DNA of 64,000 bases from Diplonema papillatum (Eukaryota; Euglenozoa; Diplonemea; Diplonemida; Diplonemidae). Shown piece by piece: positions 1 to 62,040 of this stretch. Under the pieces are notes generated by a model that was not told the origin of the DNA, did no database searches, and saw only the letters and a program-made list of their open reading frames with translations. The position numbers were made by a program, and so were the translations under genes. Position 1 is the first letter of the stretch. The number at the start of each line of letters is the position of its first letter. The DNA lies in NCBI GenBank assembly GCA_030068145.1, contig JAPJBO010000326.1, positions 1 to 64,000 of the forward strand. The letters are read 5' to 3'.

Positions 1-59
1 GGGAGTGGGGAGAGTAATTGTCTTGTGAGTTGAGCGGTGGGGGTTGATCTGTGCAAGGC

Positions 60-1080
60 GATATGCTGATGACCCTTTGACAGGCGTGCGGTACGTGCGG
101 TTGTAGTTTCGTCCTGCTGGGGGGTGTGGTTTTGTGGTTTGGGACGTAGGGGTGTGGGTGGTAAGTGTCGTAGAGCTGTGGGATGAGGTCTGGTCTAAGT
201 TGGGTGAAATGCTGGTGTCTTGTGCGTGGAAGGGTGGTAAGTACGGTCGCGGTTTGTAAGTTCTTTCGGAGTTCGTGAAAGAGTGTTGGTCCGAGTGGGC
301 GTAGTTTGAAACATATGGTTGTGGGAAGTATGTGTCGCAGGAGCTTGTGGTTGAGGGTTGCTTCGTGTAGGGTGAGATGCGGATGGTTTCTGCGCTGCTA
401 GTTGGTAGATATGGTTGTGGTTCGTATGCTCTGTCGGTGTTCGTAGACATGTGTCGGGCTGTGCGTGCGGGTGCAGTCTTGCGGTTTGGAAGATATGGTC
501 GTGGGAGGTACGTGTCGCTGGAGTTGATGCTTGAACGTTGGACCGTGTCGGGTGAGATGCTGATGGCTTGTGCGCGGTTAGTTGGTAGTGGTTGTGGTTC
601 GTATGTTCTGTCGGTGTTCGTTGACGATTGTCGGGTCGTGCGCACGGGTGTAGTCTCGTGGTTTGAAAGGTATGGCCGTGGGAGGTACGTGTCACTGGAG
701 TTGGTGCTTGAACGTTTGTCCGTGTTGGGTGATATGCTGATGGCTTGTGTGCGGCTAGTTAGTAGGTATGGTTGTGGTTCGTATGTCCTGTCGGTGTTCG
801 TAGACGAGTGTCGGGTCGTGTGCGCGGGAGAAGTCTCGTGGTTTGAAGAATATGGTCGTGGGAGGTACGTGTCGTTGGAGTTTATGCTTGAACGTCGGTT
901 CGTGTTGGGTGAGATGTTAATGAGGCTAGGTGGTTGGTACGGTTGTGGTTCGTATGTTTCGTCGGTGCTCGTCGAGACGTGTGGCGTGACGAGCGCAGGT
1001 GTAGTTACGTATCTTGGTAGGTAAGGTTGTGAGTGGTATGTATCGTGGGTGTTGATGTAAGGTTGTGGTTCGTAAGTTTC
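60..1080. repeat. degenerate satellite array, unit about 171-180 bp
   Basis: A recurring phrase, GGTTGTGGTTCGTATG, starts at about 413, 590, 770 and 941, giving units of 177, 180 and 171 bp. Each unit also repeats a GTGGGAGGTACGTGTCG block and a GGTGAGATGCTGATGG block, and weaker units extend left to about position 60. Unit lengths near multiples of three keep long frames open on both strands (377-1024 plus, 195-695 minus). I treat those as by-products of the repeat, not genes. Confidence 0.8.
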
Positions 1081-3310
1081 GTCGGTGTCCAGGGTGGAGT
1101 CTGCTGATGGAGGTGTGTCGAAGTACAGTGGACGTAGTGCCTGTGCGTGGTTACTGGCGGGCGTGTTCGTTGTAGCGTATCGCTGGTTCTGTGGTGCGGG
1201 AGCTGTGCGTCTTTTCGAGAACGAGCTTTTCGTATTGCTGCGGGTGCTCTTCGTAGGCGTAGGGCTAGTAGGCGCTGCCTCTGTGAGTCGTGCGGTTGGT
1301 GGTTCGCGCTGTTGGGTGCTAATGCGTTGGATAAGTGCTTCGTGGTATGTGGGTAGCGGCGAGTCGTCGTTGGTGCGTCGTGGTGAGCACGGAGTGGGTA
1401 CGGTATGTGCCGCTTTTCGGTTTTCAGCATGGTTGTAGCGGGTGTTTATCCGTTCTGTTTCTTTGCGCTTGGACTTGTGCGCGCGTCGTGCTGTTCTAAC
1501 TGTTGCGTGCGTTGCTGCGTCTGCGAGGATCTCCCGTACGTTTAGGAGAGTTGGAGTTATTTTGCGTTTTGACAACTGTTTACTTCTATTGGATTGATTG
1601 GTGTTTTTAAAGGTACGCCGCGCACCGAGTGTTACTTTGTTGACTTTAGTGGTACAAGTACCGAGGTCCTGTCCCTAAATAGGGTGACGCCATACAGGTA
1701 TTGGCTTTGGAGCAGCGTATGCTGTGGATGGCTTTTCTCTCCGAAAGATCGTTGATGGTTGTACCGGGCCATCCGGGAACCCCATCTTCGATCACCTAGT
1801 TTTCTATGCCCAAGGAGTCGGCGGTTCCTTGGCAGCGAGGAGGTCGTAGTTGTAACGCTACGAGGCGAGATGAACGGCTGTCCTGCGGTTTTAATGTTGC
1901 GCTTGGACCCTGACCCCGGGGTCACGTATGCATGCTACGTTCCCCTATTGTGGTCTAACGGACTTTTCGGACGGTGTGTGGGGTTGGGAGTTCAGGTCGC
2001 TGCGTGATGCGTTGTCTGCGGGCTTTCGCTGGATGTGGGGAGGTTGTACGTTCTGTGGTATGCTGCGGTCTACTGCGTATAGTTAAGCTTTGTCGGTCAC
2101 GCTGCTGTGGAGATTGGCTGTCTTCTTACTTAGGACGTAGGTCTTTGATAGCTGCTGTGTGTCGGAATATGTTGGCTGTTGTTAGAAGGCCTGTGTGAAA
2201 AGTGAACGTGGACCGTGTACTTCCTCGAGAGATGCGTGGTTGTAGGAGCTTGGACCCCTTTGAAGGCGGTGGAAATTACGGAAAGTGTGGCCTCGACCAT
2301 GACGGTCAGCCTTCTCCCACGGCGGCTCCTTCATCATATGACCGAGTTTGAAGGTGCGGGATATATAGATCGCTGGGTCCGTCATGCATAGCTGGTGCAT
2401 CCCTATGCTTGTATTTTATTTTGGCTGTACCCTCAAATTCCGTGTTTCGACCGGGGGTTCGACCTGGGAGGAGTTTTATTGATTGTTGGTACACGGGGAG
2501 AGGATGTGAGGGCAGGCTGTTGTTTACATGACAAGGTGACGTGGTGAAAGGGAAGATGGGTGTTGCGGCGGCATTGTACAAGAGGTGTTTGGTACTGCTG
2601 GAGGTATGTATGCAGGTATTGAAGTGCAAGGGGTCCAGCAAGTGTGTAACTCCTCTGAAGATGCGCTGTGGAAACTGCCGATGGTTAGGTTGTGGCATTA
2701 GTTGTGAGGTTTGCGGATTCGTTCTGGTTAACTTCGTAGATCTATCGACGGTAGAAGAAGGTGGTTTAACGTGGGCGGAAGCGTCTCCGTTGCGCTGCGT
2801 GGATTGTTGATCCGGTCGATAGGCGGGGTAGGTGTCGGAGTTTTTTTCTTTTTCCTTTTGGTGGAAGGCGACGGTCAAACGGTGGGCGTTGGGAAGGTTG
2901 TTCAACACTTCCGGGTTTCGCTGGTTTTGCCTTCGGGTCAGAGTAATGATTGTGGTTATGACTCGCTTGACCGTATATTGGGAGTGCTGCTGGCTAAGTA
3001 TGCCTTTGTTTCCCTTGGGCGGACTAGCGTTGGCAGTGATACTTTGGAAAGAAAGGAGATTGGGGAAGAGAGACGGGGATAAGTTGGGTGTTTTTGGGTT
3101 CGTGCGTTTTGCGGCTGATGCCTGTTGCGATGGTGCACGAAAAAACTGGCCTTTTCGTATTGCGCTGTTTACGTTGTACTTTATCTACGTTGTGTGTAAT
3201 CGTTAAATAGAGAAGGCCTCGTTTAAGCACTATGAGCGTGGTACACGTCCACTCTCTTTGGCTTTACCGAATTCAGAGGTAGCACGCAAGAGCCACAGCA
3301 TTCGGTGTTT
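1081..3310. other. no gene supported
   Basis: About 2.2 kb of moderately GT-rich plus-strand sequence. Only short overlapping frames are present, with no recognisable domain, RNA gene or clear repeat. Exons with short frames cannot be excluded. Confidence 0.5.
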
Positions 3311-3834
3311 TTTCTAGCGTTATTTGTGGATTAGAAGGTCGGTATTTTAAAGTCTCCGGTTGACCGTAGAGGCTTGGGTATGGCGGGGGGTTGAGAAAAG
3401 TAAAAGAGTGCGACTCGTTTCGGGTGTTGTGTCACTCCGTTGTGAAACCTTGTGAAGTCCCCTAACGCGTTTAGAGGGTGCTTGGGTTTGGGTAGGGTGT
3501 GGTCGTTCTGCTGCGGCGTGAAAAGCCAGGAAGTTTCGACGCTAATCTTCGACTCTTGATTAAGTTCACCGGGTTGCGTGCTCGTCAGGAAGATCCCGGT
3601 GCCTGGCTTTTCTTCTGGGTGGTTTCGTGTTGATCGGCGGCTGTGTGTTACGAGGCACGGATTAGGGGATGAAAAAAGGAAAAAGAAATGGGGGAGAAAA
3701 AGAAGGGGGGAGAGGGGAAGTTGGGGTTTTGAGGGTTGTCCTCGGGGTACGGGGGGGGGGGTGGTTGGAGGGTTTGAGTGACAGAGGTTACGCTTGCGTG
3801 TTCGCATGAAGGCTCGTTGGCTCGAAGAAGTGGA
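3311..3834 (-). mobile_element. 3'-end fragment of a retroelement (copy 1 of a 0.52-kb block)
   Basis: Almost the same sequence recurs at 11,637-12,172. Read on the minus strand, both copies end in CACAAATAACGCTA followed by a short A run, which looks like a retroelement 3' end. A diverged relative of the last roughly 70 bp lies at 31,152-31,230, at the 3' end of LINE A, which supports a LINE 3'UTR origin. Both long copies lose similarity at the same internal point, next to GTGGAAGTAGC. Short frames inside (for example 3578-3781) are present in both copies but look non-coding. Confidence 0.65.
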
Positions 3835-4444
3835 AGTAGCAGTAGTAGTAGTTTCCTTTCCAAAAAATCCCAGCCATTTTTGGGTTCGCCATTTCCGATT
3901 CCGATTTCCGTCGGATCCGTTCCTCGAACAAGGTGCCAGCATTGTGGTTGGCTGCTGCGTCCCGGCTCGGTATCCTGGTTGCGCACTGGGTCATTGACAC
4001 CGCAGACTACGGGTAAACGGTTTTCTAAACACAGATTCGTGCATAATTCAGGTATGCGCGAGTGACCAGCCCGTTCTACTTGTAGCGCTTCCTAATTCTG
4101 TCCCGAAACCTCTTCAGAATCAGAGCCACTGTTTTACCACGAGTAGTAACCAGCGACGGGCGCGACGTCACGAATGACCCCAGAGGAGGAGCGGGAGAGA
4201 CTCAGAGCGAACGCCGCAGCCAATCAAGATTTGAGTGATGCTACCCTTACGTAGAAGCTGCAAAGAAAAAGTGCCTGTCGTCTGAAAATAATCAGGAGCT
4301 GGCGGATGGTGACTGGATCTTGTCCTCCCTGCCGCAGGCTGGCAGGCTGAGAGAGAGACTGGAATTGCCGGCGAGCCGCCAGGGCGCATGGCAGGAGCCA
4401 TTTCTCCTGCCATCATGCAGCCATGTGCCAAGTGTACCGCTGTC
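3835..4444. other. no gene supported; short hairpin
   Basis: Nothing coding is recognisable. A short inverted repeat (GGCAGGAG with CTCCTGCC, small loop) lies near 4389-4413, just left of foldback element FB-I. Confidence 0.5.
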
Positions 4445-10945: not shown

Positions 10946-11396
10946 GAACTCAAACCGGAAATTGAAGTGAAGGTTTGCCGCAGTGAAGATCCCTTGATAC
11001 GGACACTTGCTTCAAAACGACGCTGCAAATCACCTTTTCGAATTGGGTGGCAAATCCCAGATGCGCCTGATGCGCCCAAAGTTATGGAGAATGCGCGTTT
11101 TTGGCAAACGTCCAGACAGGCGTATTTGAGGCTAACAGAGTCTTCAACGTCTGGGAAAGCCTTTTTCGAGTTTGCTGTGCTGCTCAATCATTTCTCAATC
11201 TCGCAGTTTTTTAAGTACCTTCTGCGTGAGCCTGCTCCTCATGTACGTCATTTCTAGGATATCAGAAGAGTGCCTGATTGCTGCTAGAGCATCAGGATCG
11301 CTGAGACTGCAGTCGTACGGTCTAAGGGAAAATAGCTAGGGATATAAGAGAAAGTCGAAAATACCTTAGGGCTAACGAAGAAATCTGCCTAAATAT

Positions 11397-11436
11397 TTTC
11401 CCCACTTAAGTGCTTCCGATAAGGTTTTGTCTCTAA
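11397..11436. repeat. isolated terminus of the FB-II family
   Basis: ACTTAAGTGCTTCCGATAAG matches the inverted terminus of FB-II at 20,570-20,600 (reverse complement) and the termini near 23,190 and 23,280. It directly abuts the partial 903-bp unit, so it may be a solo end left by excision or truncation. Confidence 0.55.
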
Positions 11437-11636
11437 GAAATAAGGCCCGGGCGCCCCACCCTTAGGCATACATAATACATCCTCCTCCTACTTGCGTATA
11501 TTGGCTCTGCCTGCTGCTTCGTCTTTACCGTCGCGGATGATACAAAAATTGAAAGTAGAAAGGTCAGGCAGTGATTCGGTGTGTTTGTCACAATCGTCTT
11601 TTTAGAGTTAAAGTTCGCTTGAAATTCCGGAGTTTT
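11437..11636 (-). mobile_element. partial third copy of the 903-bp end repeat
   Basis: About 200 bp match the high-coordinate end of each 903-bp unit (16,545-16,736 and 17,448-17,639) at roughly 95% identity. On the minus strand this partial copy lies 3' of the RT-USP ORF, while the two full copies lie 5' of it. Penelope-like elements are known for such pseudo-LTR arrangements. Confidence 0.65.
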
Positions 11637-12172
11637 TAGCGTTATTTGTGGATTAGAAGGTCGGTATTTTAAAGTCTCCGGTTGACCGTAGAGGCTTGGG
11701 TATGGCGGGGGGTTGAGAAAAGTAAAAGAGTGCGACTCGTTTCGGGTGTTGTGTCACTCCGTTGTGAAACCTTGTGAAGTCCCCTAACGCGTTTAGAGGG
11801 TGCTTGGGTTTGGGTAGGGTGTGGTCGTTCTGCTGCGGCGTGAAAAGCCAGGAAGTTTCGACGCTAATCTTCGACTCTTGATTAAGTTCACCGGGTTGCG
11901 TGCTCGTCAGGAAGATCCCGGTGCCTGGCTTTTCTTCTGGGTGGTTTCGTGTTGATCGGCGGCTGTGTGTTACGAGGCACGGATTAGGGGATGAAAAAAG
12001 GAAAAAGAAATGGGGGAGAAAAAGAAGGGGGGGAGAGGGGGAGAGGGGAAGTTGGGGTTTTGAGGGTTGTCCTCGGGGTACGGGGGGGGGGTGGTTGGAG
12101 GGTTTGAGTGACAGAGGTTACGCTTGCGCTGTTCGCATGAAGGCTCGTTGGCTCGAAGAAGTGGAAGTAGCG
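11637..12172 (-). mobile_element. 3'-end fragment of a retroelement (copy 2 of a 0.52-kb block)
   Basis: Near-identical to 3311-3834, with small indels. It sits between the RT-USP ORF and the partial end repeat. Either the RT-USP element carries this block in its 3'UTR or a 5'-truncated LINE landed here. Its minus-strand 3' end (AACGCTAAAAA) directly joins the partial end repeat, and the same junction occurs near 17,640. Confidence 0.6.
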
Positions 12173-12309
12173 TAGGTTATTGTTCGATGTTATTCTTACA
12201 GTCGTAAGATGTGATAAAAAAATTTATTTTAAAAAAACCTTATTTGACTGTTTGTTGTCCTCCACAGTCGGGGTTCTCTAGCTGCACGAGGCAGCCGTGG
12301 ATGATGAAA

Positions 12310-15300
12310 TTAAGTTCCTCGCTTACTTTGCTTATTCTTTTTCGTAGCCTTGAGCGTGTGCGATACCGCTGGGTTTCTCTTGCATTTTGAGATATGGTGG
12401 CGTAGACTTTTGAAGCGCGCTTTCCCTGCGGTCCGTCCGTCGTTGTTGCAGTATGGGCATTTGCGTTTTCCGAGGGCTTTCTGTGCCGCCTTTCGTACTG
12501 GGCTTGTTGCTAGAGTCATCTCTTTGCAGTGAAGCATGTGTGTACGGAGGCCTTTGGCGCCTTTGAACTTGTTGCCTGCGTCCGTGGTAGTTGCTTTGCA
12601 GGCTGGGCATGCCCAAATCAGCGTTCCTTCATGCTGTGTTGTTTCTTCGGATGAGGTCTCGTCGTCTGAGGTAGGGGTGTCCCCTCGCAATTCTTCGAGC
12701 AGTTCGAGTGTTTGTGTAGGGTCTGTGTCGGTGGGGTCTTCTTTCGTGTACAGGAACATGTACGTGGCGTTGTCTGTGTACGTAGGTTCCCGGGAGTGTG
12801 AGGTGGTTTCGTTGTTGTAATGTGTCCAGTTTTGGTCTGTGAAAGGGGTGCGGTTACGTTTGTGGATGGTGTAGTGGCCGGCGTTCTCTCTTCCTGTGTG
12901 TGTTATAACGGCTTGGAGTTCGTATTTGTGTTCGTGGTCCGGAATGTTGAGGGTGGGATCAGCTGCCACCGGGGTTCGATTTTCGTTTGCGAACTCGTTC
13001 CGTCTAAGACACAGTAGTAATGTGTCTTGTGCTGCTCGGATACTGGTTTGCGTTTCTGCTGTCTTTGTCTTTTTGCACTTGTCACATCTGTAATCTTTGG
13101 GGGTGCTTTTCTTGCAGAAACTGTCCAGACATCCTTGAGCGGTGCTGGCCTGTATTGCGAGGATTGTCATGCTGTAGGGTTGATCTTCTGTTTTGATGTA
13201 GCCGCAGTTGTTGCAATGGATTGTTGTCGTCTGTAGGTGTAATAATTCGTTGAAGGCGTCGCTGCAGTTTGGTTGGCACGTGCGGTGTTCTTCGTTTTCG
13301 TTCGCTATCGCAGCGAGTAGTTGAAGTAAGGCTTCTTCTAGGTCGTGTTGTTCTCCGTCGCCGAGGTGTGTGTCCATGTGCTCGAAGAGCCTTTGGACGA
13401 CGTTTTGGGTTTTCCTGCCGCTTATCCATTCGTTCACGTCTTGTGTGCATGGGCCTGTTTGGTGTTGTGGACAGTCGGTGTACTTGCGTATTTGATTTGA
13501 CAAGTGTGTCGCTGCTATGAGGTTTAGCGACGCTTGCAGGAAGCAAGAGTTTCTTGTCGTGTATTTGCGAAGTTGCTGTGGGTGTTTCCGCTTCGTTTTG
13601 GCTGCTACTGCTGCGGCGATGGTGATGGTTGCAACGAGGCTGGCTACTCGTTCCGTGACGGTTAATTCGGGTGTGGGTTGTGATGGAGAGTCAACGGAGG
13701 ATGGTGATTCGCTCGGTAAGTGGGCTGGGAAGAAGTTGGTTGGCCTGTGTTTGCCGGCGTACTCCGGTTCGTTGATGCGTGGTTGGCGTTTTTTGTGCCG
13801 GGCTACGCAGAATCCAAGGAACGGCTTGAGCTGGCTGTGGAGTCGTGGCAGGTTGCCGAATTCCTCTGTGAGCCATGCGTTCCAGGGTGCGTATAGTACC
13901 CGTGGGTTGTGACCTCTGTCGATCATGGCATATACGCTCCTCTGTATTTCTACACGCAGGTCTTGTAGGTGGTTCGTTTGTCGGATTGCTCGTATCAGCG
14001 AGCCCTTGAAAATCCCGCTCGCTTGCGCCTTGGGAGCCGTTGTTAAGTGGTGGGTATAGCGGGTCCCGTAGTTTTTCGGTTGTATTGTGAGGCGGATGTG
14101 CGGTGCGTGGGGAGGATCCGGACGTTCGACGCGTATCCGGACTCCGAGAAATACTACGTCGTCGTGTGCTGTAGTTGTGTTTTTGTACCGCATGTTGTAA
14201 AGGTGCTGCGGTGGTGGTGTGGTCCCGAAGTTGAGGAAGTCGTCGATGAAGCGGTAGGTGTGTGCGTGTGCCTTCGCTTCTTCGATCTTTCCTTCATCTA
14301 CGAGGCTGTCTACGTATGCTTTCTCGATCCGATAGCAGAAAAGGTTTGCTATATCCGAGCTAGCATTACCGCCCATAGGTATGCCGTCGGTCTGCCTGAG
14401 TACTTGATCGCCTTGTGCTATGTAGCTGTTACCGATAATGATTGCAAGTAGTTCTTTGACTGCTTCTCTGGAGTATGCGCGCTTCGTGTCGTTCGTCTGC
14501 CGGCTGAAGGTGAAGGTTTTCTTGCCTTTCTGTTTCGCTCCACGTGTTAGGTTAGGGTTGCCGTTCTGTTCTTCGAATTCGAAAGCTTCTTCGATCGCTT
14601 CGCATACTTCTTCCACTATCTTGTCCTGAGGTAGCCTTGTGTACATGTCCTCGAAGTCGTGTGTAGTTGGGATTTTGTATCGGAGGCGGGTGAGGTTCTG
14701 CTTTATGTGCAGGGTGATGTCGTCTGGTCCTTCTGTAAACCATACACGTTTGATTCCTGTACGGCGGAAGTTGAGTTCGTCTTTTCGTTTGAGGGCTTTC
14801 ATCACGCTTTTCAATAGGCCTGATAGTTCGAGGTGGGCATTTGTGAGGGTTGCTTTGGGTGCCTCGCGTTTTGTGTTGCGGTGCTTTTTGTTTTTTTCTG
14901 CGGCGACACCGGCTATCCAACGGAAAGATGGTTCTGCTTTGTGTAATTTTATGGAGCCGTAGAGGTGTGGTAGTCCCTTGTGGAACGGTAGGTCGAGCTC
15001 TGCCATTATACGTTTGTGGTTGCTCTCTACTTCTGTTTTTGTGATCGTTTGTTTCTCGTATGTTTCGTTTGCGTCGAGTTGTTGCCGTAGCGCGTGTGTG
15101 TATTGGGCTTTGCAACAGTATCCAAAATCGTGCGTTGTTTTGTCTACTGGTAAGATGACCAGGTGTTGTTTAATGACAGCTAGTTCGGCTGTGGCCTTTG
15201 TATTCAATTTCTCGTCGTCTGAAGGTGGTAGAGCCGCCATTCTTCGTGATATTTCGGCTTTGAGCTCCGTTTCGAATGAGGTTGTGTCACTGCCTGCGGG

Positions 15301-15894
15301 GTAGTATGTCTGTACGTACTCCTCTATTGCCTCGTGTAGCGTTTCGGTCAGAGCGTGGTGGCTCTGGTAGCATCTGTACTTTCTGCCTCTGCTGACGATT
15401 TCCGAAAGCCCGTTTTCTTTCGTAATTGCTGAGAGGAAGCCTATGGCGTGGCCGTTGATCGTTTTTCCGGAGTTGTATCTGTGACATGCGCAGTGCTCTG
15501 GTTTAGGGAGTGGTATGTCAGGCAGTTCCTTGCTGATCTGTGTTACGTTTTGTAGCCTAAGATAGAGTGGGGGGTTCAGTCGGAAAGAGATTTTGGTGCG
15601 CTGTTGTATCTCTTCTTTTGGGCAAGCGCGTTTAATCGCCGGTTGTTGTAGGATGTCGTGTAAACGTAGTGAGTTGATGTGTTCACTGCCGTGTGTGATT
15701 ATGAGCCTTGCTGGTGCTCCGTCGTCTTTTATTACTTTGTTGAGTGTTATCTCCCCGAGTCGATCTTTTAGGCTTTTTTCGAGTGCTGTGACGGTAGGTG
15801 GCAAATTGGTGCGAGGTGCGTGAGCGATTAGCCTTTTAATTAGCTGTAACAAATAATGTCTCCAGGGAAGCAGAAATTGGTTGTTGCAACACAC
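12310..15894 (-). CDS. retroelement polyprotein: reverse transcriptase + ubiquitin-specific protease + two zinc fingers
   Basis: This open frame of about 1,194 codons joins a reverse transcriptase to a deubiquitinase. RT landmarks, numbered from 15,894, are a PVDK-type block and a YGSIKLHK block, motif A Asp413 in THDFEDMYTRLP, motif B GIPMGG (504-509) and motif C FIDD (549-552). A Ser/Pro-rich linker follows. Next come USP (peptidase C19) features: Cys784 in the NSCFLQ box, a QHDLEEALLQLL helix block, CxxC pairs of a zinc finger (CNNC and CDKC) and His1007 in AGHYTIH. The USP ends with NNET and YMFLY. Two C2H2/C2HC fingers begin at Cys1096 and Cys1146. The RT resembles Penelope-like or related lineages, and no endonuclease domain is visible. 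The frame begins at a GTG, and no in-frame ATG occurs back to the upstream stop, so the true start, or a 5' exon ending at TTGTTACAG near 15,845, is unresolved. Confidence 0.85.
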   Translation of the reverse strand: MCCNNQFLLPWRHYLLQLIKRLIAHAPRTNLPPTVTALEKSLKDRLGEITLNKVIKDDGAPARLIITHGSEHINSLRLHDILQQPAIKRACPKEEIQQRTKISFRLNPPLYLRLQNVTQISKELPDIPLPKPEHCACHRYNSGKTINGHAIGFLSAITKENGLSEIVSRGRKYRCYQSHHALTETLHEAIEEYVQTYYPAGSDTTSFETELKAEISRRMAALPPSDDEKLNTKATAELAVIKQHLVILPVDKTTHDFGYCCKAQYTHALRQQLDANETYEKQTITKTEVESNHKRIMAELDLPFHKGLPHLYGSIKLHKAEPSFRWIAGVAAEKNKKHRNTKREAPKATLTNAHLELSGLLKSVMKALKRKDELNFRRTGIKRVWFTEGPDDITLHIKQNLTRLRYKIPTTHDFEDMYTRLPQDKIVEEVCEAIEEAFEFEEQNGNPNLTRGAKQKGKKTFTFSRQTNDTKRAYSREAVKELLAIIIGNSYIAQGDQVLRQTDGIPMGGNASSDIANLFCYRIEKAYVDSLVDEGKIEEAKAHAHTYRFIDDFLNFGTTPPPQHLYNMRYKNTTTAHDDVVFLGVRIRVERPDPPHAPHIRLTIQPKNYGTRYTHHLTTAPKAQASGIFKGSLIRAIRQTNHLQDLRVEIQRSVYAMIDRGHNPRVLYAPWNAWLTEEFGNLPRLHSQLKPFLGFCVARHKKRQPRINEPEYAGKHRPTNFFPAHLPSESPSSVDSPSQPTPELTVTERVASLVATITIAAAVAAKTKRKHPQQLRKYTTRNSCFLQASLNLIAATHLSNQIRKYTDCPQHQTGPCTQDVNEWISGRKTQNVVQRLFEHMDTHLGDGEQHDLEEALLQLLAAIANENEEHRTCQPNCSDAFNELLHLQTTTIHCNNCGYIKTEDQPYSMTILAIQASTAQGCLDSFCKKSTPKDYRCDKCKKTKTAETQTSIRAAQDTLLLCLRRNEFANENRTPVAADPTLNIPDHEHKYELQAVITHTGRENAGHYTIHKRNRTPFTDQNWTHYNNETTSHSREPTYTDNATYMFLYTKEDPTDTDPTQTLELLEELRGDTPTSDDETSSEETTQHEGTLIWACPACKATTTDAGNKFKGAKGLRTHMLHCKEMTLATSPVRKAAQKALGKRKCPYCNNDGRTAGKARFKSLRHHISKCKRNPAVSHTLKATKKNKQSKRGT

Positions 15895-17639
15895 AGCGCA
15901 AAAGAAACAGTGATTGGATGTTGAGTTTGAATGAAATGCGCTCTTCCTACGGGCTCGGTTTTTGCTCTCGACAGCAACAAGTTCACAACCTGATGTCCAT
16001 CAAGTTCACAGCCCGACTGTCATCGGCAAAAACTATCCGTATTTCCTCCTTTTTAGTAAAACCCTGGTGAATAGCCGCACGTTCTACTGGCACGCGATCT
16101 TTCTGCTCTCTCGGGATGCTTAATATCTACATTCCGGTCCTACTCATTACACTCCGGACCTACTTTCCTTCACTCCGATGCATTGTTGCTTTCCAGTCAC
16201 TGAGTTTTATCAAAGTAGCATCCCAGAGGGTGTCGGTGGTACGAAGGCGCAGTTAGTTGCCCGCATCCAACCGGCAAATCAGCTCGCATTGGGGAGGTGA
16301 CGCTGCTCACAGGGACGAGGTGTCCTGCTGCCCGGGAGAAGGGAGCGCAGAGCTGAAGATGGCGTTTTTCGATGAAGGTTCGGTTATGAGATGGGATAGG
16401 GAGGGAGGGTCCGTGCATAGATGCAAACATAGAGCAGAAAGAAGTGCGTAGGGAACGTGTCAGTTAGACTTTGGCGGACACTTGTCGGCATAGCGGAGGA
16501 TCCACCTTTATATTTTTTGACGGACAGATGACGGCATGGCAAACCATAAGGCCCGGCGCCCCCCCCTTAGGCATACATAATACATCCTCCTCCTACTTGC
16601 GTACTGGCTCTGTCTGCTGCTTCGTCTTTACCGTCGCGGATGATACAAAAGTCGAAAGTAGAAAGGTCAGGCAGTGATTCGGTGTGTTTGTCACAATCGT
16701 CTTTTTAGAGTTAAAGTTCGCTTGACATTGCGGAGTTTTTAATTAGCTGTAACAAATAATGTCTCCAGGGAAGCAGAAATTGGTTGTTGCAACACACAGC
16801 GCAAAAGAAACAGTGATTGGATGTTGAGTTTGAATGAAATGCGCTCTTCCTACGGGCTCGGTTTTTGCTCTCGACAGCAACAAGTTCACAACCTGATGTC
16901 CATCAAGTTCACAGCCCGACTGTCATCGGCAAAAACTATCCGTATTTCCTCCTTTTTAGTAAAACCCTGGTGAATAGCCGCACGTTCTACTGGCACGCGA
17001 TCTTTCTGCTCTCTCGGGATGCTTAATATCTACATTCCGGTCCTACTCGTTACACTCCGGACCTACTTTCCTTCACTCCGATGCATTGTTGCTTTCCAGT
17101 CACTGAGTTTTATCAAAGTAGCATCCCAGAGGGTGTCGGTGGTACGAAGGCGCAGTTAGTTGCCCGCATCCAACCGGCAAATCAGCTCGCATTGGGGAGG
17201 TGACGCTGCTCACAGGGACGAGGTGTCCTGCTGCCCGGGAGAAGGGAGCGCAGAGCTGAAGATGGCGTTTTTCGATGAAGGTTCGGTTATGAGATGGGAT
17301 AGGGAGGGAGGGTCCGTGCATAGATGCAAACATAGAGCAGAAAGAAGTGCGTAGGGAACGTGTCAGTTAGACTTTGGCGGACACTTGTCGGCATAGCGGA
17401 GGATCCACCTTTATCTTTTTTGACGGACAGATGACGGCATGGCAAGCCATAAGGCCCGGCGCCCCCCCCTTAGGCATACATAATACATCCTCCTCCTACT
17501 TGCGTACTGGCTCTGTCTGCTGCTTCGTCTTTACCGTCGCGGATGATACAAAAGTCGAAAGTAGAAAGGTCAGGCAGTGATTCGGTGTGTTTGTCACAAT
17601 CGTCGTTTTAGAGTTAAAGTTCGCTTGACATTCCGGGGT
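15834..17639 (-). repeat. two tandem 903-bp units, pseudo-LTR-like
   Basis: 15,834-16,736 and 16,737-17,639 are about 99% identical head-to-tail copies. Differences are single bases, for example near 16,146/17,049 and 16,515/17,418. On the minus strand they lie 5' of the RT-USP ORF. The inner copy overlaps the ORF's first codons (the PWRHYLLQLIK segment). The outer copy breaks off at the same CTAATTAAAA word. Small frames inside are duplicated with the repeat and are not convincing genes. Confidence 0.85.
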
Positions 17640-17640
17640 T

Positions 17641-17810
17641 TTTAGCGTTATTTGTGTTTTTAGGTGTAATTCCCTTATATCCCAACACTTGAAATTTTGT
17701 TGGGCAAGGCAATCCCATGGGGATATAAGGGAACAAAATTTGTTGGTTGGGATATGAGGGAACAAAATTTGTTGTCCCATTGGGATATAAGGGACGACCA
17801 CAGAACCTGG
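17641..17810. repeat. CCCTTATATCCC-family inverted repeat (copy 1)
   Basis: Words such as GGATATAAGGGAACAAAATTT occur in both orientations here and again at 19,425-19,585. The segment starts right at a TTTTTAGCGTTATTTGTG junction. Confidence 0.65.
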
Positions 17811-20594: not shown

Positions 20595-21475
20595 GGAACT
20601 GCTTCCGTTATATATTTTTCTGCTTCCGTTATATATTTTCTGCTTCCGTTATATATTTTCAAGCTTCCGTTATATATTTTTCCCAGCTTCCGTTATATAT
20701 TTTCCAGCTTCCGTTATATATTTTCCAGCTTCCGTTATATATTTTCCAGCTTCCGTTATATATTTTCCAGCTTCCGTTATATATTTTCCAGCTTCCGTTA
20801 TATATTTTCCAGCTTCCGTTATATATTTTCCAGCTTCCGTTATATATTTTCCAGCTTCCGTTATATATTTTCCAGCTTCCGCTATATATTTTCCAGCTTC
20901 CGTTATATATTTTCCAGCTTCCGTTATATATTTTCCAGCTTCCGTTATATATTTTCCAGCTTCCGTTATATATTTTCCAGCTTCCGTTATATATTTTCCA
21001 GCTTCCGTTATATATTTTCCAGCTTCCGTTATATATTTTCCAGCTTCCGTTATATATTTTCCAGCTTCCGTTATATATTTTCCAGCTTCCGTTATATATT
21101 TTCCAGCTTCCGTTATATATTTTCCAGCTTCCGTTATATATTTTCCAGCTTCCGTTATATATTTTCCAGCTTCCGTTATATATTTTCCAGCTTCCGTTAT
21201 ATATTTTCCAGCTTCCGTTATATATTTTCCAGCTTCCGCTATATATTTTCCAGCTTCCGTTATATATTTTCCAGCTTCCGTTATATATTTTCCAGCTTCC
21301 GTTATATATTTTCCAGCTTCCGTTATATATTTTCCAGCTTCCGTTATATATTTTCCAGCTTCCGTTATATATTTTCCAGCTTCCGCTATATATTTTCCAG
21401 CTTCCGCTATATATTTTCCAGCTTCCGTTATATATTTTCCAGCTTCCGTTATATATTTTCCAGCTTCCGTTATAA
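20595..21475. repeat. 21-bp satellite, left arm of FB-II, about 42 copies
   Basis: The unit CTTCCGTTATATATTTTCCAG recurs almost without change, apart from some C-for-T variants (GCTATATA). The homogeneity implies recent expansion or gene conversion. Confidence 0.95.
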
Positions 21476-21616
21476 TATTATATGCTATGTTCTGATAAAT
21501 ATTGGAGTGTTTCCATAAGTCACCACACAGAAATGCAGGCCCAAAGTCACCGGAGAAAGCCTAACTAGATAACGAAGAAAGCCTAACTAGAGAAACAAAA
21601 GAGGAACAGCAACAGG

Positions 21617-22861: not shown

Positions 22862-23165
22862 ATATATAACGGAAGCTGGAAAATATATAACGGAAGCTGG
22901 AAAATATATAGCGGAAGCTGGAAAATATATAACGGAAGCTGGAAAATATATAACGGAAGCTGGAAAATATATAACGGAAGCTGGAAAATATATAGCGGAA
23001 GCTGGAAAATATATAACGGAAGCTGGAAAATATATAACGGAAGCTGGAAAATATATAACGGAAGCTGGAAAATATATAACGGAAGCTGGAAAATATATAA
23101 CGGAAGCTGGAAAATATATATCGGAAGCAGAAAAAATATATAACGGAAGCAGCTTCCGTTATATA
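22862..23165. repeat. 21-bp satellite, right arm of FB-II, about 13 copies
   Basis: The complementary form of the left-arm unit (AACGGAAGCTGGAAAATATAT). The plus-strand frame reads a heptad, YNGSWKI, which is a by-product of the 21-bp period. Confidence 0.9.
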
Positions 23166-26097: not shown

Positions 26098-29000
26098 CTA
26101 GTAATCCACCCGAAGGCTATCGTAGAACATCGCCGAGCCGTCGACACGCGAAGGAGCACTGATTGCAAAGTAAGGCGAAGTATTGAAAGGACCAAACGCC
26201 TCGGGGATCGGAACCTGTTGTGACTCATGGACGATAATATTGTTTCGAGGGTTGATGATATTCAGATTGACGGCGGGGAGACCGTTGTAACGTATGAATT
26301 CGAGACGGACCAGTACCCATTCTTTCAGTGGGGTTTCCGCCAAGAGAACGATGCGTTTTCCATCTACTTCCAGGACCGCCTTTACGTCAGTGGCGGAGGA
26401 ATCGACCAAACGGAGACGAAGCTCACAGACATTTACGCTATACATACGAATGTCCCCTGTACTTGAGCTGCTCTCTCCACGCACGTAGAACGATACCTCT
26501 GACGGTGTCCCTGCGGGTACGGACACCCAGCGAATGGTTCCAGGTCTGCTTCTGAGGCTCCCGCTGCCTGCGTACTTAGTATTCGTGTCGATGCTGAAGG
26601 GTAATACGTTTTGGGCCAGGTTGTCATAACCCTCGGACCAAGAAGGACGCGTAGCCGGGACGGGGGTGGGGGTAGAGTAATCCACCCGAAGGCTATCGTA
26701 GAACATCGCCGAGCCGTCGACACGCGAAGGAGCACTGATTGCAAAGTAAGGCGAAGTATTGAAAGGACCAAACGCCTCGGGGATCGGAACCTGTTGTGAC
26801 TCATGGACGATAATATTGTTTCGAGGGTTGATGATATTCAGATTGACGGCGGGGAGACCGTTGTAACGTATGAATTCGAGACGGACCAGTACCCATTCTT
26901 TCAGTGGGGTTTCCGCCAAGAGAACGATGCGTTTTCCATCTACTTCCAGGACCGCCTTTACGTCAGTGGCGGAGGAATCGACCAAACGGAGACGAAGCTC
27001 ACAGACATTTACGCTATACATACGAATGTCCCCTGTACTTGAGCTGCTCTCTCCACGCACGTAGAACGATACCTCTGACGGTGTCCCTGCGGGTACGGAC
27101 ACCCAGCGAATGGTTCCAGGTCTGCTTCTGAGGCTCCCGCTGCCTGCGTACTTAGTATTCGTGTCGATGCTGAAGGGTAATACGTTTTGGGCCAGGTTGT
27201 CATAACCCTCGGACCAAGAAGGACGCGTAGCCGGGACGGGGGTGGGGGTAGGGGTAAGGGCAGGGGCGTTCGTCGGCGGAGCACTGGTTGGTGGAGCAAT
27301 CGGGGTAGGTGCAGGGGTAGGGGCAGGGGTAGGTGGGACAGGGGTAGGTGGGGCAGGGGTAGGTGGGACAGGGGTAGGTGGGACAGGGGTAGGTGGGGCA
27401 GGGGTTTCCGGATAGAAGACAATGACATGCGATTCTACGCGGATTGTGTAAGAGTTCTCCCCAGTTTCTATAGAGCCGGTCTTCGAGGCCCAGCTACCGT
27501 GAGTAAACTCAAGGCTGTCGTCGTATCTCGTGCCGAGATTCTCAGAGCCATCGCAGGTGATTGCAACGAAAAACGACTCTCGCCCCTGTTCAACTGTGCA
27601 CAACACATCTTGAAATGTGTCGTGCCATCTACCTGGTCGTGTAGAAAAGGTGGCAAGATCCACAGCAAACCAGCTCGTCTCATCGTCGAACAAGATGGTC
27701 TTCCGGTCATCTTGTAGAGTGCCTTCTTTATTGGTGCTCGTATCAGATACATGAACGCCAAAGCGAACTACATCTATTGAGGTTATGGCTTCGGAGCCAG
27801 TCGAGTCTAGCTTACGGCAGCTGAGAGATGCTTCCTGTTGCACCAGTGCAGTGGAGGGCACGCCGATGCAAATTTCTCCCCAGGTTCGTTTCCAGTACCG
27901 CGCGAACTCGACAACCACGCGGGTGCATTCTCTCGTCATGCCCGAGGGAACCACGGCGAGTTCTTCGTGAGCCGCGAACTTCTCGCACACGTTCGTGTCT
28001 TCTACCTCTGCCGTCCAGCTGCGCGAAGCGCACGCATCAGCTAAGTGGTTTGTGCTTTCCCAAACGAGCTGCTTGGTTTTCGGGAGCAACAATTCCGTTT
28101 CTCCTAGAACAGAGTCGAACACGACGCCGACACTGTCCGGCAGGGTTGGCACGGGCTCTGTGGCGGTGAAGGCCGGCAGCTCGCACGTGCTCAGCACCGT
28201 GAGAGAGAAAATGATGTTGAGCGTGAGTTCGACGGATATCGGCGTCTCGATGCCGCAGGAGCCGTAAGCCGTGAATTTGACCCTTGTGACCATGACTAAG
28301 CAAGAGTTTTCCTCTGCTTGCTTGCGCTCCGCCTCCATCTCCAGAACATAGCCGCACAACTCGTCTCCCGAGGCCTGTATACCGGTGACTTCAAGCACGC
28401 GGTCACGCAAGTTGGCCATTTCCTTGAACTGCTCGCGTGTGGCAAATAATGGTAAGGGGCTTACCGGGGGCGAAGAGACCGTCAGACTTACTGGCTGAGA
28501 GTAGTAGAGCGAAAGAATTTGCTCGCCCGACGAGCGGGTAAGATTGATGTACCACGCAAGGCTTTTGTCTCCGGCTTGCCCTGTGCTCTCCATGACGGCG
28601 GTTACTTCTGAGGTGTCCGCCTCCCCGTCGATGTGGGTGATGCGCACTTTGTCGTCTGCAAACAGTGTTCCGATGTATTCGGTAGCAGGATTGGACAGAA
28701 GCAACGTCACAAGCGTGACGACGGGAGCGCTTGTGGTTTCTTCAACAGCGACGGTGGCAGGGGTGTCCTCCCCCCCGCCGTCGACGGTCCAGCCGCCGTC
28801 GCCTTGCCGGAATGTGGCAGACGTGGCTTTCTTCCACTCGTGGACGCCGTTCGCGCTGCGCATCGACCCGTCGCCCTGCGCTTCGAGAACCACGTCGCCG
28901 CCGTCCCGATACCCCGCGATGGTCACCAACGTGCCACCTTGCACGACGCCTGAGTACTCCGCGTTGTCGACTCCGTCGAAGCACTCAATCTCGGCGCGAA

Positions 29001-30580
29001 TGAAATTCTTCGACTCCTGGTCCTCGGCGTACCGAACGTTGCACGAGGCGCCCCACCAGCCCTTGGTCACGGTGTACTGTCCTTCGACGTTCTTCGTCTG
29101 CGCCCTTTTCCACTTCGTGCCGTCACCGAACGTCAGTCTGTTGCCGTCCAGCGTCGCCGTCTGCGAGTCCGTCTGCGAGTCCCACTTGATCTCGTACCCT
29201 TTGACGACCAGCAACCCCCGCAGGGAGCCGGTGCTCGTCGCGGTGACCTTGTACTCCACCTCCGCCGCGCCGCCGCTGAACTTTTTTTCAAGCCGCAGCA
29301 GCGTGCCGTCGGCGGCCCCTTCCTCTTTCCACACGCCGCCCAGAAACGGCAGCGCGACGGCCGAACTCACGGTCGACACCTCAGGAGCGAGGTCCGGGAT
29401 CGTGCCTGTCACCGAAGCGATCTTCCCTCCTGGGTCGGCGATGGAAGCCTTCTCGGGCGCCTGCACAGCCAGGGTCACCCCGGCGGGCAGGGAGCCGACG
29501 ACGAGCATCGGGTTTCTCTCTGGTGTCGCGGGGAGCCTCAACTCTATGTTTTCGAAATCCTCGATGGAGAAGACCTGCCCGCTCGGCGCTTCGAATCCTA
29601 CGTCTGTGAAGCGGCCGGAGAATGGGCGGTCGTACGTTGAGTAGTCGAGCACGAGTGTGTCGATCTCGGGACTGCCCTTGAAGTGCGTTTCGGTGAGTAG
29701 ATCCTTCGCGGACACTGTAGTAGCTTCTGTCCGCCCGCTGAAGTCGAAAAGCGCGTCGTTGGGAAGCAGGAAACTGCCCTTGTCGATGGGGTTGTCATCA
29801 GTATACTGGATAACCCGCACCCGTTCGGTGGCAACGGCGCCGGAGACGTGCGCAATGAGCACCCTTTGCGGTATGCGATTGTCTGCGGGCGGTTGTTGCG
29901 GTGTACCGGATTGCGGCTCAGCTCCCTCGATCGGGGACAGAGGGCACGTCAACGGTCGCGCATCAGGCACATTCACCCACGGAAAATCTGACACGGAGCA
30001 GCTCAGTCCAGCGACAGCTGGATCCCCCGGCTGTGGGTTCGCACTCCCACCGCTTCCATTGTCACCTCCATTGTCACCTCCATCACCACCTCCATCATCA
30101 TCATCACCACCGCCGCCACCCGCGCAGCCTTTGGTTCCCACCCGGATCGGACTACAGAAGAAGCAAAGCTTGACCTCCGCGTAGACCGCAGCGCAAAAGC
30201 CTCCGGTTATGTCGATCAAGTCGAAGAACGAACCGTCTACCGCAGCCTGCTTTACCTCACGGAACTGAAGCTGCCCGTCCCCATCTGGGTCGTTGAGGTC
30301 CATGCCAAAGGTCAGGGATACCGAGCCACCGACTTTCGCAGATACGAACAAGAGGTTGACGCCGGCTTCTGCGCCTAACTCCCCATAGAAGTCGATCTCT
30401 TTGACGTCCTCGCCGCCGTTTCCTTCAATGCTGTCGGTGTCCGACACGTACAGACCATCAAGGAACAGGAGGGGCTCGCCAAGCCTGAGCCCTTCCCTGA
30501 TTCCGGACGAGTTGAGGCCGATCATTAGCTGCGCCTTTAGCTTCAGCACGGCGTTGATGTTGCCGCCGATGACGAAGTAC
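26098..30580 (-). CDS. giant secreted protein, exon 2 (C-terminal about 1,494 residues)
   Basis: The frame is open upstream to a GTG at 30,615, but there is no ATG. A consensus acceptor, AACAAAACAG, ends at 30,581, so I begin the exon at 30,580. Near the start is an EF-hand-type calcium loop, DPDGDGQLQFRE (residues 2479-2490 of the joined protein). It sits in a context resembling bacterial giant calcium-binding surface proteins, whose LNDPDGDGK-type loops are followed by a Cys/Phe-Asp segment. A Gly/Asp-rich linker follows, then beta-rich sequence with repeated W-K-rich motifs. A Pro/Thr linker (27,250-27,415, PPTPVPPTPAP type) leads to two identical 192-residue domains beginning PSWSEGYDNLAQ, which look like jelly-roll or lectin-type modules. 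The stop is at 26,098-26,100. It is probably extracellular, in the cell wall or matrix. Confidence 0.75.
26100..27251 (-). repeat. 576-bp exact tandem duplication inside exon 2
   Basis: 26,100-26,675 and 26,676-27,251 appear identical wherever I compared them. 576 is 192 codons, so the frame is kept and the terminal domain is doubled. It is either a very recent event, conversion-maintained, or an assembly artefact. Confidence 0.9.
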
Positions 30581-30615
30581 CTGTTTTGTTTATCCGGTGG
30601 TTGCGGTTGGCGCAC

Positions 30616-31151
30616 CTGACGAATCGGCGCGCAAAAAAAAGTACGTCACGTGAGGTCCAACATCAGAACCTGCAGCTAAAAAGGATGTGCCCGAGTCACA
30701 CCCGAAAAGCGGGTGTGCCACAACAAAAACACAAGCACACCCAAACCCAAAAAGCAGGTGTGATACCCGCTTTTTACCTCCACCTGCAGAGGCTGGACTC
30801 CATCGTGTTCACAGTACACGATCCTTGATAGCACTTGTCCACGTGGTCGCAAGCGAACACAAGGATAGATAGGAAGAAAGCGTTCCGTTCTGATTCTCCT
30901 TGGAAGTGAAGGGGACACCAGCCCAACAAGTGGTTCCCTCACGCTGCAGCACAGTAGGTCACGAATCGTGGCTCGAGTGTTCACGAGCCGATCCCATACT
31001 CGGATCTCCATTGCATAGGCATATATCAATGGCTGCTGTGTCGACGGAGCACGGATAGACGAGTTTTAGACAAGAATGATACGAATTTAGACGAGTTTGG
31101 CACGAACATACGAGCCGTTTGACGAGAATTTGCTCCGCACCATCCAGGGGA
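30616..31151. other. intronic stretch without a gene
   Basis: Contains a short inverted pair near 30,693-30,775 (CACACCCGAAAAGCGGGTGTG and relatives) and GACGAG/GACGAATTT micro-repeats at 31,050-31,125. No coding sequence is supported. Confidence 0.5.
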
Positions 31152-31409: not shown

Positions 31410-34400
31410 TTATTTGAATACGTCGTCCGAGGACGATCTCAAAGCGGACGAGGACGGTGACAATAGGCTGGTGATATCCAGCTCCATTCTTCGTTTGTTG
31501 CGCTTTCGCGCCGGCTGTCCTGCCGAAGCAGTCGCTCGAGGGGGCGATCCTGACATGGATGAGGATGAAGTCGTGGTGGCAGGGCTGGTGATATCCAGCT
31601 CCATTCTCGAAATGTTGCGCTTTCGCGCCGCGTGCTTTTTTCCGGGTTTTCCCGCCGGGTCATTCGGTGGTGTCGGGAGTCGGGCTCTTTTCTGCCCCTT
31701 TCTTGGTGGTGTCGCTCGGGCCGGCTCGGTCGGAGCGTGCTTTTTCGCCATCTTGGCCGCCTTTGGGGACGCTTGACGCGTCCTCTTCATGCGCGGTGGT
31801 GTCGTCGGCTTCTGTCGGCCCTTCTTCCGCGGCGTTGTTGGCTTCGGCTTAGCGGGGGCTGGCTTCGGGGGCGCTGGCACGTGGTGGCCCTTTTTGCAGC
31901 AGGCTGACGGCCGCCGTTCCGCTAGCGTCGGTAAGCCGCGGCAGTCGTCACACGGACCGCGGGCGTGTTCGCGGCAGTCATGGTGGCCGGCCTTGCAGCA
32001 CGCTGTTGGCGTGTTGCACTCCACGCATCTCGTCATGCGGTGCCGGTCGCAGACGGCCGGAGGTAAGCCGTCGTTGTCGGCGTGGTGGTGTCCGAGTGCG
32101 CGACAGACTGCGCACTTCCCTTTGTGATGGGTAGCGCACTTGGGGGCATTCTTCGTCGCCTCCGGCACTGCGTGTGGGAGGTGCAGGGGATCCGGGTTGG
32201 TCAGTGGCGCACTGGGGATTAGTCCGTCCGCTCGGGCGGGTACGCCGGCGCTGTGCCGTAGCCGGTTTTCACCTGCTGCATGATGGTCGGCCCGGTTTCG
32301 GGCATGCGGTGGCGGGGCCGGGGCTGGAAGCCGGGTACGCTGCTCAGGTCTATTAACGACAAGGCTGTCGTTCGCGACTTGAAGTCGCCAGGGAGGCACT
32401 TGCCGAGTTGTTGTTGCACGGCCAGCTTGTTGATTGCGCTCAACATGCAGCGCATCCCGTTGGCCTTCTCCCGATGCGTCTTGGCCGCCTTGCTAGGTGC
32501 CTTGATGTCGAGGCCCGAGAACAGCTCGAAGTCGATAGCTGCCTCTACCGCTGCCATGTCGCCATCCGATGACCATTCGAGGCCCGAGAGCCAGTCGATC
32601 GCTGCCAGGAATGTCCTTTCGTCCCAGTAGCGTAGCCACGCCCAGGCCGGGGCGATGCGCCGGAACGGGAACTCGCGTTTCGCCGTTGGCATCTGCGCGC
32701 AGCGCTCCCAGGGGGTCGCCGCCTTTCGTTCTAGCCATCTAACGTTGACCCGGCGCGCCCGCTCCGCCAGGATCTCTGCCATCAGCGCTTGTACCGGCCC
32801 GGCAAATTCCCGTGTCGCCGGCGTCACGATTCCGTGCTCCCGCAGGCAGCTCGGCCAGAGCCTCCTGTCGGACTGTGCGATCCCCGCGTACTCGGGCTTC
32901 GTGCGTATGTTCTCGAAGGCCGTGCAATCCCAGTAGACGTGGTGCTCGTCTTCCAATGCTCCCGAGTCACACAACGTACAGGCGGGGCTTCCGCCTTGGC
33001 GAAATCTCGACGTGTATTCGGCGGTGTTCACGCCACCTGCGAGGGCAACCCTGATCAGCAGCGCGTTCTGGGGCGGACAGTGGCGCGTTGTCCATAGAGC
33101 GTTGGTGGACTCGATCGCGATGTTGGTGATGCCGGAGAAGCTTGGCCGTCGTGTTTCCAACCGCTTCCACAGTCGGTTCCGCAGGTTGTCGCGGATGATG
33201 TGATTTCGCTCGGAGGTGGACATTGCCGGGGGTCGGAGTGCAGCGCCGTCCAGGTCGACGGACGACGGCGGGCCGCCGTTCCACGTGTGGCCGCAGGGTT
33301 GTAGGCCGTGCCTTACCGCGGTTCCCCCCGGGCCAAGGGCTGCGGTCACTCGTTCGCCGTATAGGCGCCGGACTTCCGTCATCAGCGGCATCAGGTGCGG
33401 CAGTCTCCCACAGGCGCTGTAGAAATCCGCGGTTATTCGGTACGCCGTCGCCGTCGCAGGGTGCGTCGGGAGTGGAGCCCGAGGTCCTGCATGAGGCGGA
33501 GTGCGATTTCCCGCGGGACGCGGTCAAAGCACTTCGAGAAATCCAGAGATAGCCCGCACAGTGGCTCGCCGCTCAGCAAGGCGCGTTCGATCTCGAGCGT
33601 CAATGTAAACAACGGGTCCTCTCCCCGGTGGCCAGGTCGGAAACCGTGTTGACCCTCCTCGACCCAACTCTCCTGCCACACCGCAACATTCTTCAGACGC
33701 CGGCAGGCCCAGAGGCGGTACACGCAGGATGTCACCGTTATCGGTCGCATGTTGAGCGGTTGCCCGTCGTCGCCCTTCGGAATCATACTCACGAGAGCTG
33801 TTCGCATTGCCTGCGGCCAGATCCCCGTTCTCTCGACCAGGTTCAACAGTGTGGCCAGGGATTCAAGGTACAGGTCGGGGAGTGCCTTCAGCTCAGCCAT
33901 CCTCCAGCCGTCGATCCCGCAAGCACCCTTGACGCCTTTCTTCGTTAGCAGCGCGCGTAGCTCTGTCCCCGTGATCTCGCCTACTTCCTGAGGGTGTCCA
34001 TCGATGTAGCGCTGGTACCGGCCAGCAAAAGGTGTGTAGGGCGGCTCGGGACCGTCCTTGTAGGCGCGGAAGACCGGATCCCATGCGTCCTGAAGCACTG
34101 CGTCCATTTCCTCTGCGTTTGCCGTGGTCCGCTCACCTTCCAGCGTGGTCGCTTCCTGCCTGTGTTGCCGTCGGCACCACGCTACGACACTCCGCCTGTT
34201 TTCGTCCGCTCGCTTTGTCGCTCCGGTGAAGTATTTTGCACGTCGAGCCTCCATGCTGGCCTTTCCGATCGCTCCGTTCCTCTCCCGGACTGCCTGCAAC
34301 AGACTGCTGCACTCCTGGAGACTGGGCAATTCGTCCCATGCCGTCATCGGCTTTCCGCGTAGCGCTGCGCACTCACTCGCGAGCTTCCTACAGTTCTTCC

Positions 34401-44391: not shown

Positions 44392-44392
44392 G
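39298..44392 (+). mobile_element. LINE B, 5'-truncated APE-type non-LTR retrotransposon
   Basis: Inserted between identical 48-bp direct repeats. It lacks ORF1 and the first part of the endonuclease. Its 3' end is the stop codon itself: the second target copy starts at the last base of TAG, leaving no 3'UTR and no A tail. Family members A and D share its C-terminal tail. The precise boundaries and clean duplication suggest a fairly young insertion. Confidence 0.85.
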
Positions 44393-54760: not shown

Positions 54761-54856
54761 CGCCCCCCCCCACCCCCCCAAAAGGGGGGTGCAACGTGCA
54801 ACGGGGTCAACGTCCCTTAGTGCGCACCCTGGGGCGGGGTACAAAAAAAAGCGTAC

Positions 54857-62001: not shown

Positions 62002-62040
62002 CGCACGATTTCAGTGTGCCTCGGCAAGCGTGGCGTTTCG

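Follow-up and report, generated by a model that had tools for sequence, protein, structure and literature searches.

A reverse transcriptase joined to a ubiquitin-specific protease in a probable Penelope-like retrotransposon of Diplonema papillatum

The DNA analysed here, referred to below as the window, comprises the first 64,000 nucleotides of contig JAPJBO010000326.1 (C326:1-64000) from the assembly of the marine diplonemid Diplonema papillatum, which contains 271,365,524 bases in 2910 contigs. On its minus strand, a single open reading frame (ORF) of 1229 amino acids (12310..15999) joins a reverse transcriptase (RT) to a ubiquitin-specific protease (USP, peptidase family C19). With slightly better than even confidence, we interpret this frame as part of a 5'-truncated copy of a recently active D. 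papillatum Penelope-like retrotransposon, whose longest frame encodes a GIY-YIG endonuclease, the RT, the USP and C2HC zinc fingers, and whose USP protects the element's RT-RNA complex. The fusion of RT and USP in one retroelement ORF had been proposed in an earlier note on this DNA, and is upheld by a profile match, fold comparison, many intact copies, purifying selection between subfamilies and the transcriptome-derived protein P0012, while the boundary and start codon proposed there are not.

Results

The USP domain occupies residues about 813-1090 (12730..13563; all coordinates of the element and its domains refer to the minus strand), and is recognised by both profile and fold searches. 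A match to the C19 family had been set beforehand as a test of the proposal, and the Pfam UCH profile matched residues 815-1084 of the window protein with an E value of 6.5e-14 and 52.6 bits, well above the cut-off of 23.9. In a fold comparison, the predicted structure displayed the overall USP fold. The predicted catalytic residues are Cys819 (13543..13545), His1042 within a GHY motif (12874..12876) and, as the putative third member of the triad, Asn1062 within a YNN motif (12814..12816), each present in 30 of 30 loci. Two CxxC pairs, at residues 929/932 (13204..13215) and 972/975 (13075..13086), make up the USP finger; some USPs lack this zinc finger. Two further fingers of the C2HC type close the protein, as had been described, with CxxC motifs beginning at 1131 and 1181 (residues 1131-1158, 12526..12609, and residues 1181-1206, 12382..12459). 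Fingers similar to the first of these are found in the related proteins P0014, P0024, P0015 and P0022.

The RT region extends over residues about 270-715 (13855..15192), and contains motif A, HDFEDMYT with Asp448 (14638..14661), motif B, GIPMGGNAS with GIPMGG at residue 539 (14359..14385), and motif C, RFIDDF with Asp586 and Asp587 (14236..14253); the Asp residues of motifs A and C were present in 30 of 30 loci. These motifs, the Cys and His boxes and the CxxC pairs lie in an uninterrupted frame where the earlier note had placed them, with residue numbers shifted by 35 (its Asp413 is D448, and its Cys784 is C819). The DK motif, YGxxKLHK, GIPMGG and FIDD presumably resemble the motifs of Penelope-like element (PLE) and telomerase RTs, and the region is 40-48% identical over 332-344 aligned residues to P0003, P0014, P0013 and P0012. 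In the proposed check against RT families, the Pfam RVT_1 match (E value 0.046) fell below its cut-off, and the RT assignment therefore rests on the motifs, the related proteins and the anatomy of related elements. An RT-only profile compared with solved structures gave two matches up to an E value of 10, neither of which was an RT. The 50 rows shown from the PDB fold list were all USPs and barely covered the RT part, and a viral library returned mostly USPs at the top, followed by viral polymerases and polyproteins.

The element sequence proper extends from 11637 to 15833, with its 5' limit placed where identity to a copy on contig C42 begins and the sequence abuts a flanking repeat, and its 3' limit at the terminus CACAAATAACGCTA. 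The element-derived coding part comprises residues 57-1229 and the stop codon (12310..15833), codon 56 spans the junction, and the 3' untranslated region and 3' terminus occupy 11637..12309. When 12310-15833 was shuffled 200 times at the dinucleotide level, no open run exceeded 262 codons, compared to the 1173 observed; the open frame is not due to chance. Approximately the first 56 residues (15834..15999) are an extension of the frame by chance into the flanking repeat, and are not element coding. This repeat consists of two tandem units of 903 bp at 15834..17644, outside the element (15834-16741 and 16737-17644 are 99.3% identical). The earlier note had placed the start and boundary at 15894, which lies inside the repeat. 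A start codon near this position was rejected, because the stretch belongs to the flanking repeat and nothing supports a start there; the first in-frame ATG does not occur before residue 254. A 903-bp unit beginning TAAAAACTCCGGAATTTCAAGCG or close to it follows the 3' terminus of the element both in the window and at locus L005 (contig C2479), and this may mean that the two copies share an insertion site, that a segment was duplicated, or that the repeat accompanies the element.

Comparison of the window protein to its own genome yielded at least 38 rows (a lower bound, since 38 of 2022 first-look candidates were scored), 33 of which had no stops and 13 of which lay in an open frame of 2210 codons. 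In the 2210-residue frame of the C42 copy, the order is a Tyr/Pro-rich repeat region, GIY-YIG at residue 858, RT, USP and two C2HC fingers, with the GIY-YIG and RT motifs in one frame. Pfam analysis of a 1688-residue part of this frame, at locus L002, detected GIY-YIG (E value 4.1e-6, 27.4 bits against a cut-off of 22.6) and UCH (E value 3.7e-14). The window copy is without the first 1037 of the 2210 C42 residues, the GIY-YIG domain included, consistent with the 5' truncation that target-primed retroelements commonly undergo; neither the endonuclease nor the truncation appeared in the earlier note. Only 2 differences separate the window and C42 copies over 1173 shared residues, and the window copy is therefore recent. 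The 3' terminus could be read in 25 of 30 loci; among these 25 tails, 22 distinct 3' flanks were counted by eye (L001 and L005 share a flank, as do L018 and L021, and the flank of L019 is close to that of L022).

A second copy is found at the beginning of the window, also on the minus strand. Its 5' part (1..3309) includes the 5' untranslated region and an N-terminal Tyr/Pro-repeat ORF (1674-1) that is cut by the contig end, and the last residues of this ORF diverge from the C42 frame in the manner of a frameshift. Just upstream, 3310..3845 carries 3'-terminal sequence of the same element, 97.6% identical to 11633-12175, representing a pseudo-long terminal repeat (pseudo-LTR) or head-to-tail junction. 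The tail was joined to the head at the same point in three of the four 5' regions read (the second window copy, C124 and C679), and the C42 copy had no junction. Elements of the P0003 type also form head-to-tail arrays, with 3 copies at 5726-bp steps on C510 and 2 at 5850 on C2819.

Homology searches returned 10, 22 and 20 proteins, and an RT together with an above-cut-off UCH match was identified in eight proteins: that of the window, P0002, P0003, P0010, P0012, P0013, P0014 and P0024. P0012, from a EukProt transcriptome with the tag Rhum, presumably that of the diplonemid Rhynchopus humris, carries RT and USP in one predicted protein. The expectation that both parts share one mRNA is supported by this protein, and the same fusion recurs in other sources, in P0012 and in P0013 and P0024 on ENA contigs. 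Among viral contigs, 93 pattern matches were obtained, none of which was confirmed as a relative. In the D. papillatum genome, P0014 gave 34 rows, 24 of which span residues 1-1498/1499 without stops at identities of 100% (18 rows) and 86% (6 rows). P0003, a query of 867 residues from which the N-terminal part is absent, gave 53 rows, of which 42 span 1-866/867 without stops at 100, 80 and 74-75%. As to whether the USP was captured once or repeatedly, a USP tree of 28 rows, from which P0002 was left out as a duplicate of L040, neither rejected nor demonstrated a single transposable element (TE) clade (p-AU 0.48), and support was 56/84 without the two longest TE rows.

These elements bear on annotation, in that ORFs of D. 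papillatum elements are publicly named ubiquitin hydrolases. A UCH family search of the genome, in which 149 of 935 candidates were scored, gave 112 rows, by hand count, between 76.5 and 85.9 bits with the profile covered to position 240; these were counted by element score class and not by RT linkage. Copies of P0014 score 76.5 bits and C981/L034 scores 85.3 bits, and two more rows with such scores match the profile no further than from position 1 or 2 to 141. The L034 ORF has a GIY-YIG match just above the cut-off (22.9 versus 22.6), RT motifs, a USP and a finger. The window's own family was not among the 149 rows listed.

One might suspect that the fusion is an artefact, either a chimera created by assembly or gene modelling, or a host USP gene that lies by chance next to an RT pseudogene. 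The retroelement proteins P0003 and P0014 carry host names in public databases (ubiquitin carboxyl-terminal hydrolases 26 and 16, respectively), and in some gene models, P0006 and P0008 among them, host domains are fused to pieces of the element. However, 33 of 38 rows are stop-free, 22 distinct 3' flanks are seen among 25 tails, and the fusion also occurs in a transcriptome protein and on ENA contigs, all of which contradict an artefact; we rejected this explanation as extremely improbable. The D. papillatum gene models P0005, P0006, P0007 and P0008, which join pieces of the RT-USP element type to other domains, including UNC-93 (P0006), a dynein intermediate chain (P0007) and TPR (P0008), are themselves probably annotation chimeras.

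Other deubiquitinase (DUB) types were found in the C-terminal position of related proteins. P0022 has an OTU domain above the cut-off (28.9 versus 23.3), and P0015, its homologue over the RT and tail, has the same GNCFFE box, with no OTU called by Pfam. A Josephin domain scored just above the cut-off in P0025 (26.6 versus 26), in which RT motif C reads RYIDH, and below it in P0021 (19.3). In P0017 and P0018, the tail resembles Josephin at the motif level only: Pfam detected no Josephin in these two proteins, a three-sequence model of this tail type had a pLDDT of 34, and profile comparison of the Josephin-like tails with P0021/P0025 was weak (probability 29.5 for the best of 10 pairs). On an RT tree of 20 rows, USP required 3 changes and Josephin-like 3, with the label taking in the weak cases P0016, P0017, P0018 and P0019; well-supported branches forced only 1 and 2 changes, and the tree fixes placements among the DUB groups only in part. 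With P0022 as query, 68 of 643 D. papillatum candidates were scored, and none of the 68 showed an OTU match; they aligned only to the first 290 residues of P0022, mainly RT. By eye, no relative with an apparently complete C-terminus was clearly without a DUB candidate, P0019 being ambiguous.

The remainder of the window contains further repetitive and coding sequences. A 21-bp tandem repeat of about 42 copies and its 14-copy inverted counterpart (20601-21479 and 22862-23150) have arms that are 97-99% complementary. A 1515-aa frame at 26098-30645 includes an exact 576-bp tandem duplication (26100-26675 and 26676-27251) and has no Pfam match. LINE-like frames at 33433-35433, 40106-44392 and 45617-50035 all contain an RT, and two of them an exonuclease/endonuclease/phosphatase domain. 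The 2397-aa frame at 54817-62010, with no Pfam match at E values up to 0.01, may belong to a host gene or encode a large protein of a mobile element, and the frame at 62699-64000 is RNase H-like, narrowly missing the Pfam cut-off (25.7 versus 25.8).

Discussion

The residues predicted to form the catalytic triad are retained in all 7 aligned elements, even though the most distant pairs share only 22-28% USP identity, and P0024 shows the same USP motifs. The ratio dN/dS was 0.10-0.25 for the USP in 9 subfamily pairs drawn from the P0003 and P0014 types, and 0.05-0.11 for the RT in the 8 subfamily pairs with computable dS, the pairs sharing sequences. These ratios indicate that, where subfamilies of related elements are compared, the USP has been under purifying selection. 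Within the window family (29 copies), pN/pS for the RT was 0.05. Several observations weigh against our interpretation. A number of the subfamily pairs approach saturation in dS, and the highest USP ratios (0.25 and 0.21) came from the two pairs furthest from it. Among the same 29 copies, USP pN/pS was 1.47 at a synonymous divergence of 0.0012, which affords little power and gives no purifying signal. The USP part of the structural model has moderate confidence only, with a pLDDT of about 40-70, and no Met precedes residue 409 in the C42 frame.

If the USP were a ubiquitin-binding or structural module, catalysis would not be needed, and the variation of the third triad residue between Asn and Asp across the aligned elements could be taken in this sense. 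Active USPs also allow Asn or Asp at this position, and the retention of Cys and His at such low identities, together with the dN/dS values, argues against a non-catalytic role, which we regard as quite improbable.

We propose that the GIY-YIG endonuclease would nick the target, and that the RT would copy the element RNA at the nick by target-primed reverse transcription, a mechanism suggested for PLEs in the available excerpts of PMC11167929. The combination of endonuclease, RT and 5' truncation fits such a mechanism. The attached USP might then deubiquitinate the RT-RNA complex of the element together with the proteins it has bound, allowing the complex to escape proteasomal removal, or host ubiquitin-dependent silencing, for the time needed to integrate. 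Presence of the DUB in the same polypeptide suggests that it acts where the RT is, and the C-terminal fingers may hold it on nucleic acid.

These fingers could also tether the DUB to DNA. At the insertion site, the DUB might act on proteins of chromatin or of DNA repair, such as ubiquitinated histones or PCNA, opening the target or steering repair of the nick instead of shielding the element's own proteins. In the predicted structure, the neighbours of the USP include USP1 and the SAGA enzyme Ubp8, whose substrates are FANCD2/PCNA and histone H2B, respectively. However, the Z scores of many USPs in this list differ by a few units only, and the neighbour list therefore names no substrate; moreover, the occurrence of OTU and Josephin in the same place would argue against one fixed substrate surface. 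A DNA-repair role has been suggested for transposon OTU/Ulp1 domains in the accessible part of Bao et al. 2010 (PMC2836005). We would rank chromatin or repair targets second to protection of the ribonucleoprotein, as a possibility with perhaps a minority chance of being correct.

A third role, in which the USP processes the element's own polyprotein by cleaving a ubiquitin-like fusion or junction, might be expected from a single 2210-codon frame with several domains. USPs recognise folded ubiquitin-type substrates, which counts against this role, and Pfam identified no ubiquitin-like domain in 1688 of the 2210 C42-frame residues (E values up to 0.1) or in the N-terminal frame, 558 residues long, of the second copy in the window (E values up to 1). 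Because no such domain occurs in the stretches scanned, self-processing is improbable, and looks the least likely of the roles put forward in the earlier note.

There is about an even chance that the elements with these DUB types form a PLE clade with a standing C-terminal DUB slot, in which different lineages use the unrelated USP, OTU and Josephin folds, because host ubiquitination limits the elements and its removal is needed for replication. The filling of a single slot by unrelated folds suggests that what counts is the activity and not a particular substrate surface, and would amount to a natural experiment in which activity, not fold, is selected. If our interpretation is correct, the ubiquitin system is a directly testable barrier to retrotransposition, with its counter-enzyme in the same protein and in many near-identical copies, and the host's protein-disposal system and mobile DNA are engaged in a tug-of-war.

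We class the element as Penelope-like on the basis of its anatomy. It shows broad PLE traits, namely GIY-YIG and RT in one ORF (the C42 copy) and head-to-tail copies with a pseudo-LTR. Its GIY-YIG is N-terminal, and it is therefore not placed in the canonical Penelope/Poseidon clade. Naiad/Chlamys PLEs have an N-terminal GIY-YIG followed by the RT, the same order as here, and to our knowledge no USP has been described in them. Many PLEs, though not all, contain a hammerhead ribozyme; none was detected at gathering score in the window, or at E values up to 10 in 11300-17800. A loose hammerhead regular expression matched two places in 11300-17800, which were not counted as ribozymes. According to the available excerpts of PMC11167929, canonical Penelope/Poseidon PLEs share with the window element GIY-YIG and RT in one ORF and tandem copies with pseudo-LTRs, but have a C-terminal GIY-YIG, whereas the window family has it N-terminally, adds a USP and C2HC fingers after the RT, and gave no hammerhead match in the searches above.

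DUB-type proteases and other ubiquitin-related domains are found in other mobile elements. Dualen/RandI LINEs are retroelements with an OTU cysteine protease, but have a LINE RT and other endonucleases, and are not known to carry a USP. We found no published report of an RT-USP fusion in a search that reached few subscription papers; Penelope and ubiquitin each occur 0 times in the accessible main text of the D. papillatum genome paper, and ubiquitin is not mentioned in the accessible part of PMC12278014. Burro giant Gypsy elements likewise have extra domains related to ubiquitination, but are LTR elements with MATH/TRAF, RING-finger and BIR motifs, with no USP named in the available portion of PMC6431247. 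In the same part of Bao et al. 2010 as above (PMC2836005), Ginger1 DNA transposons are described as having a C-terminal cysteine protease, which is OTU or Ulp1 depending on the family, a slot similar to that of the window element, but with an integrase-like transposase and no RT or USP reported. That account also includes Trichomonas vaginalis XP_001314237.1, in which Peptidase C19 is fused to transposase_11, thus joining C19 to a mobile-element enzyme that is a DNA transposase, not an RT. Cysteine proteases, C19 among them, are therefore already known in DNA transposons, and what appears to be new here is the fusion of RT and USP in a Penelope-like retrotransposon.

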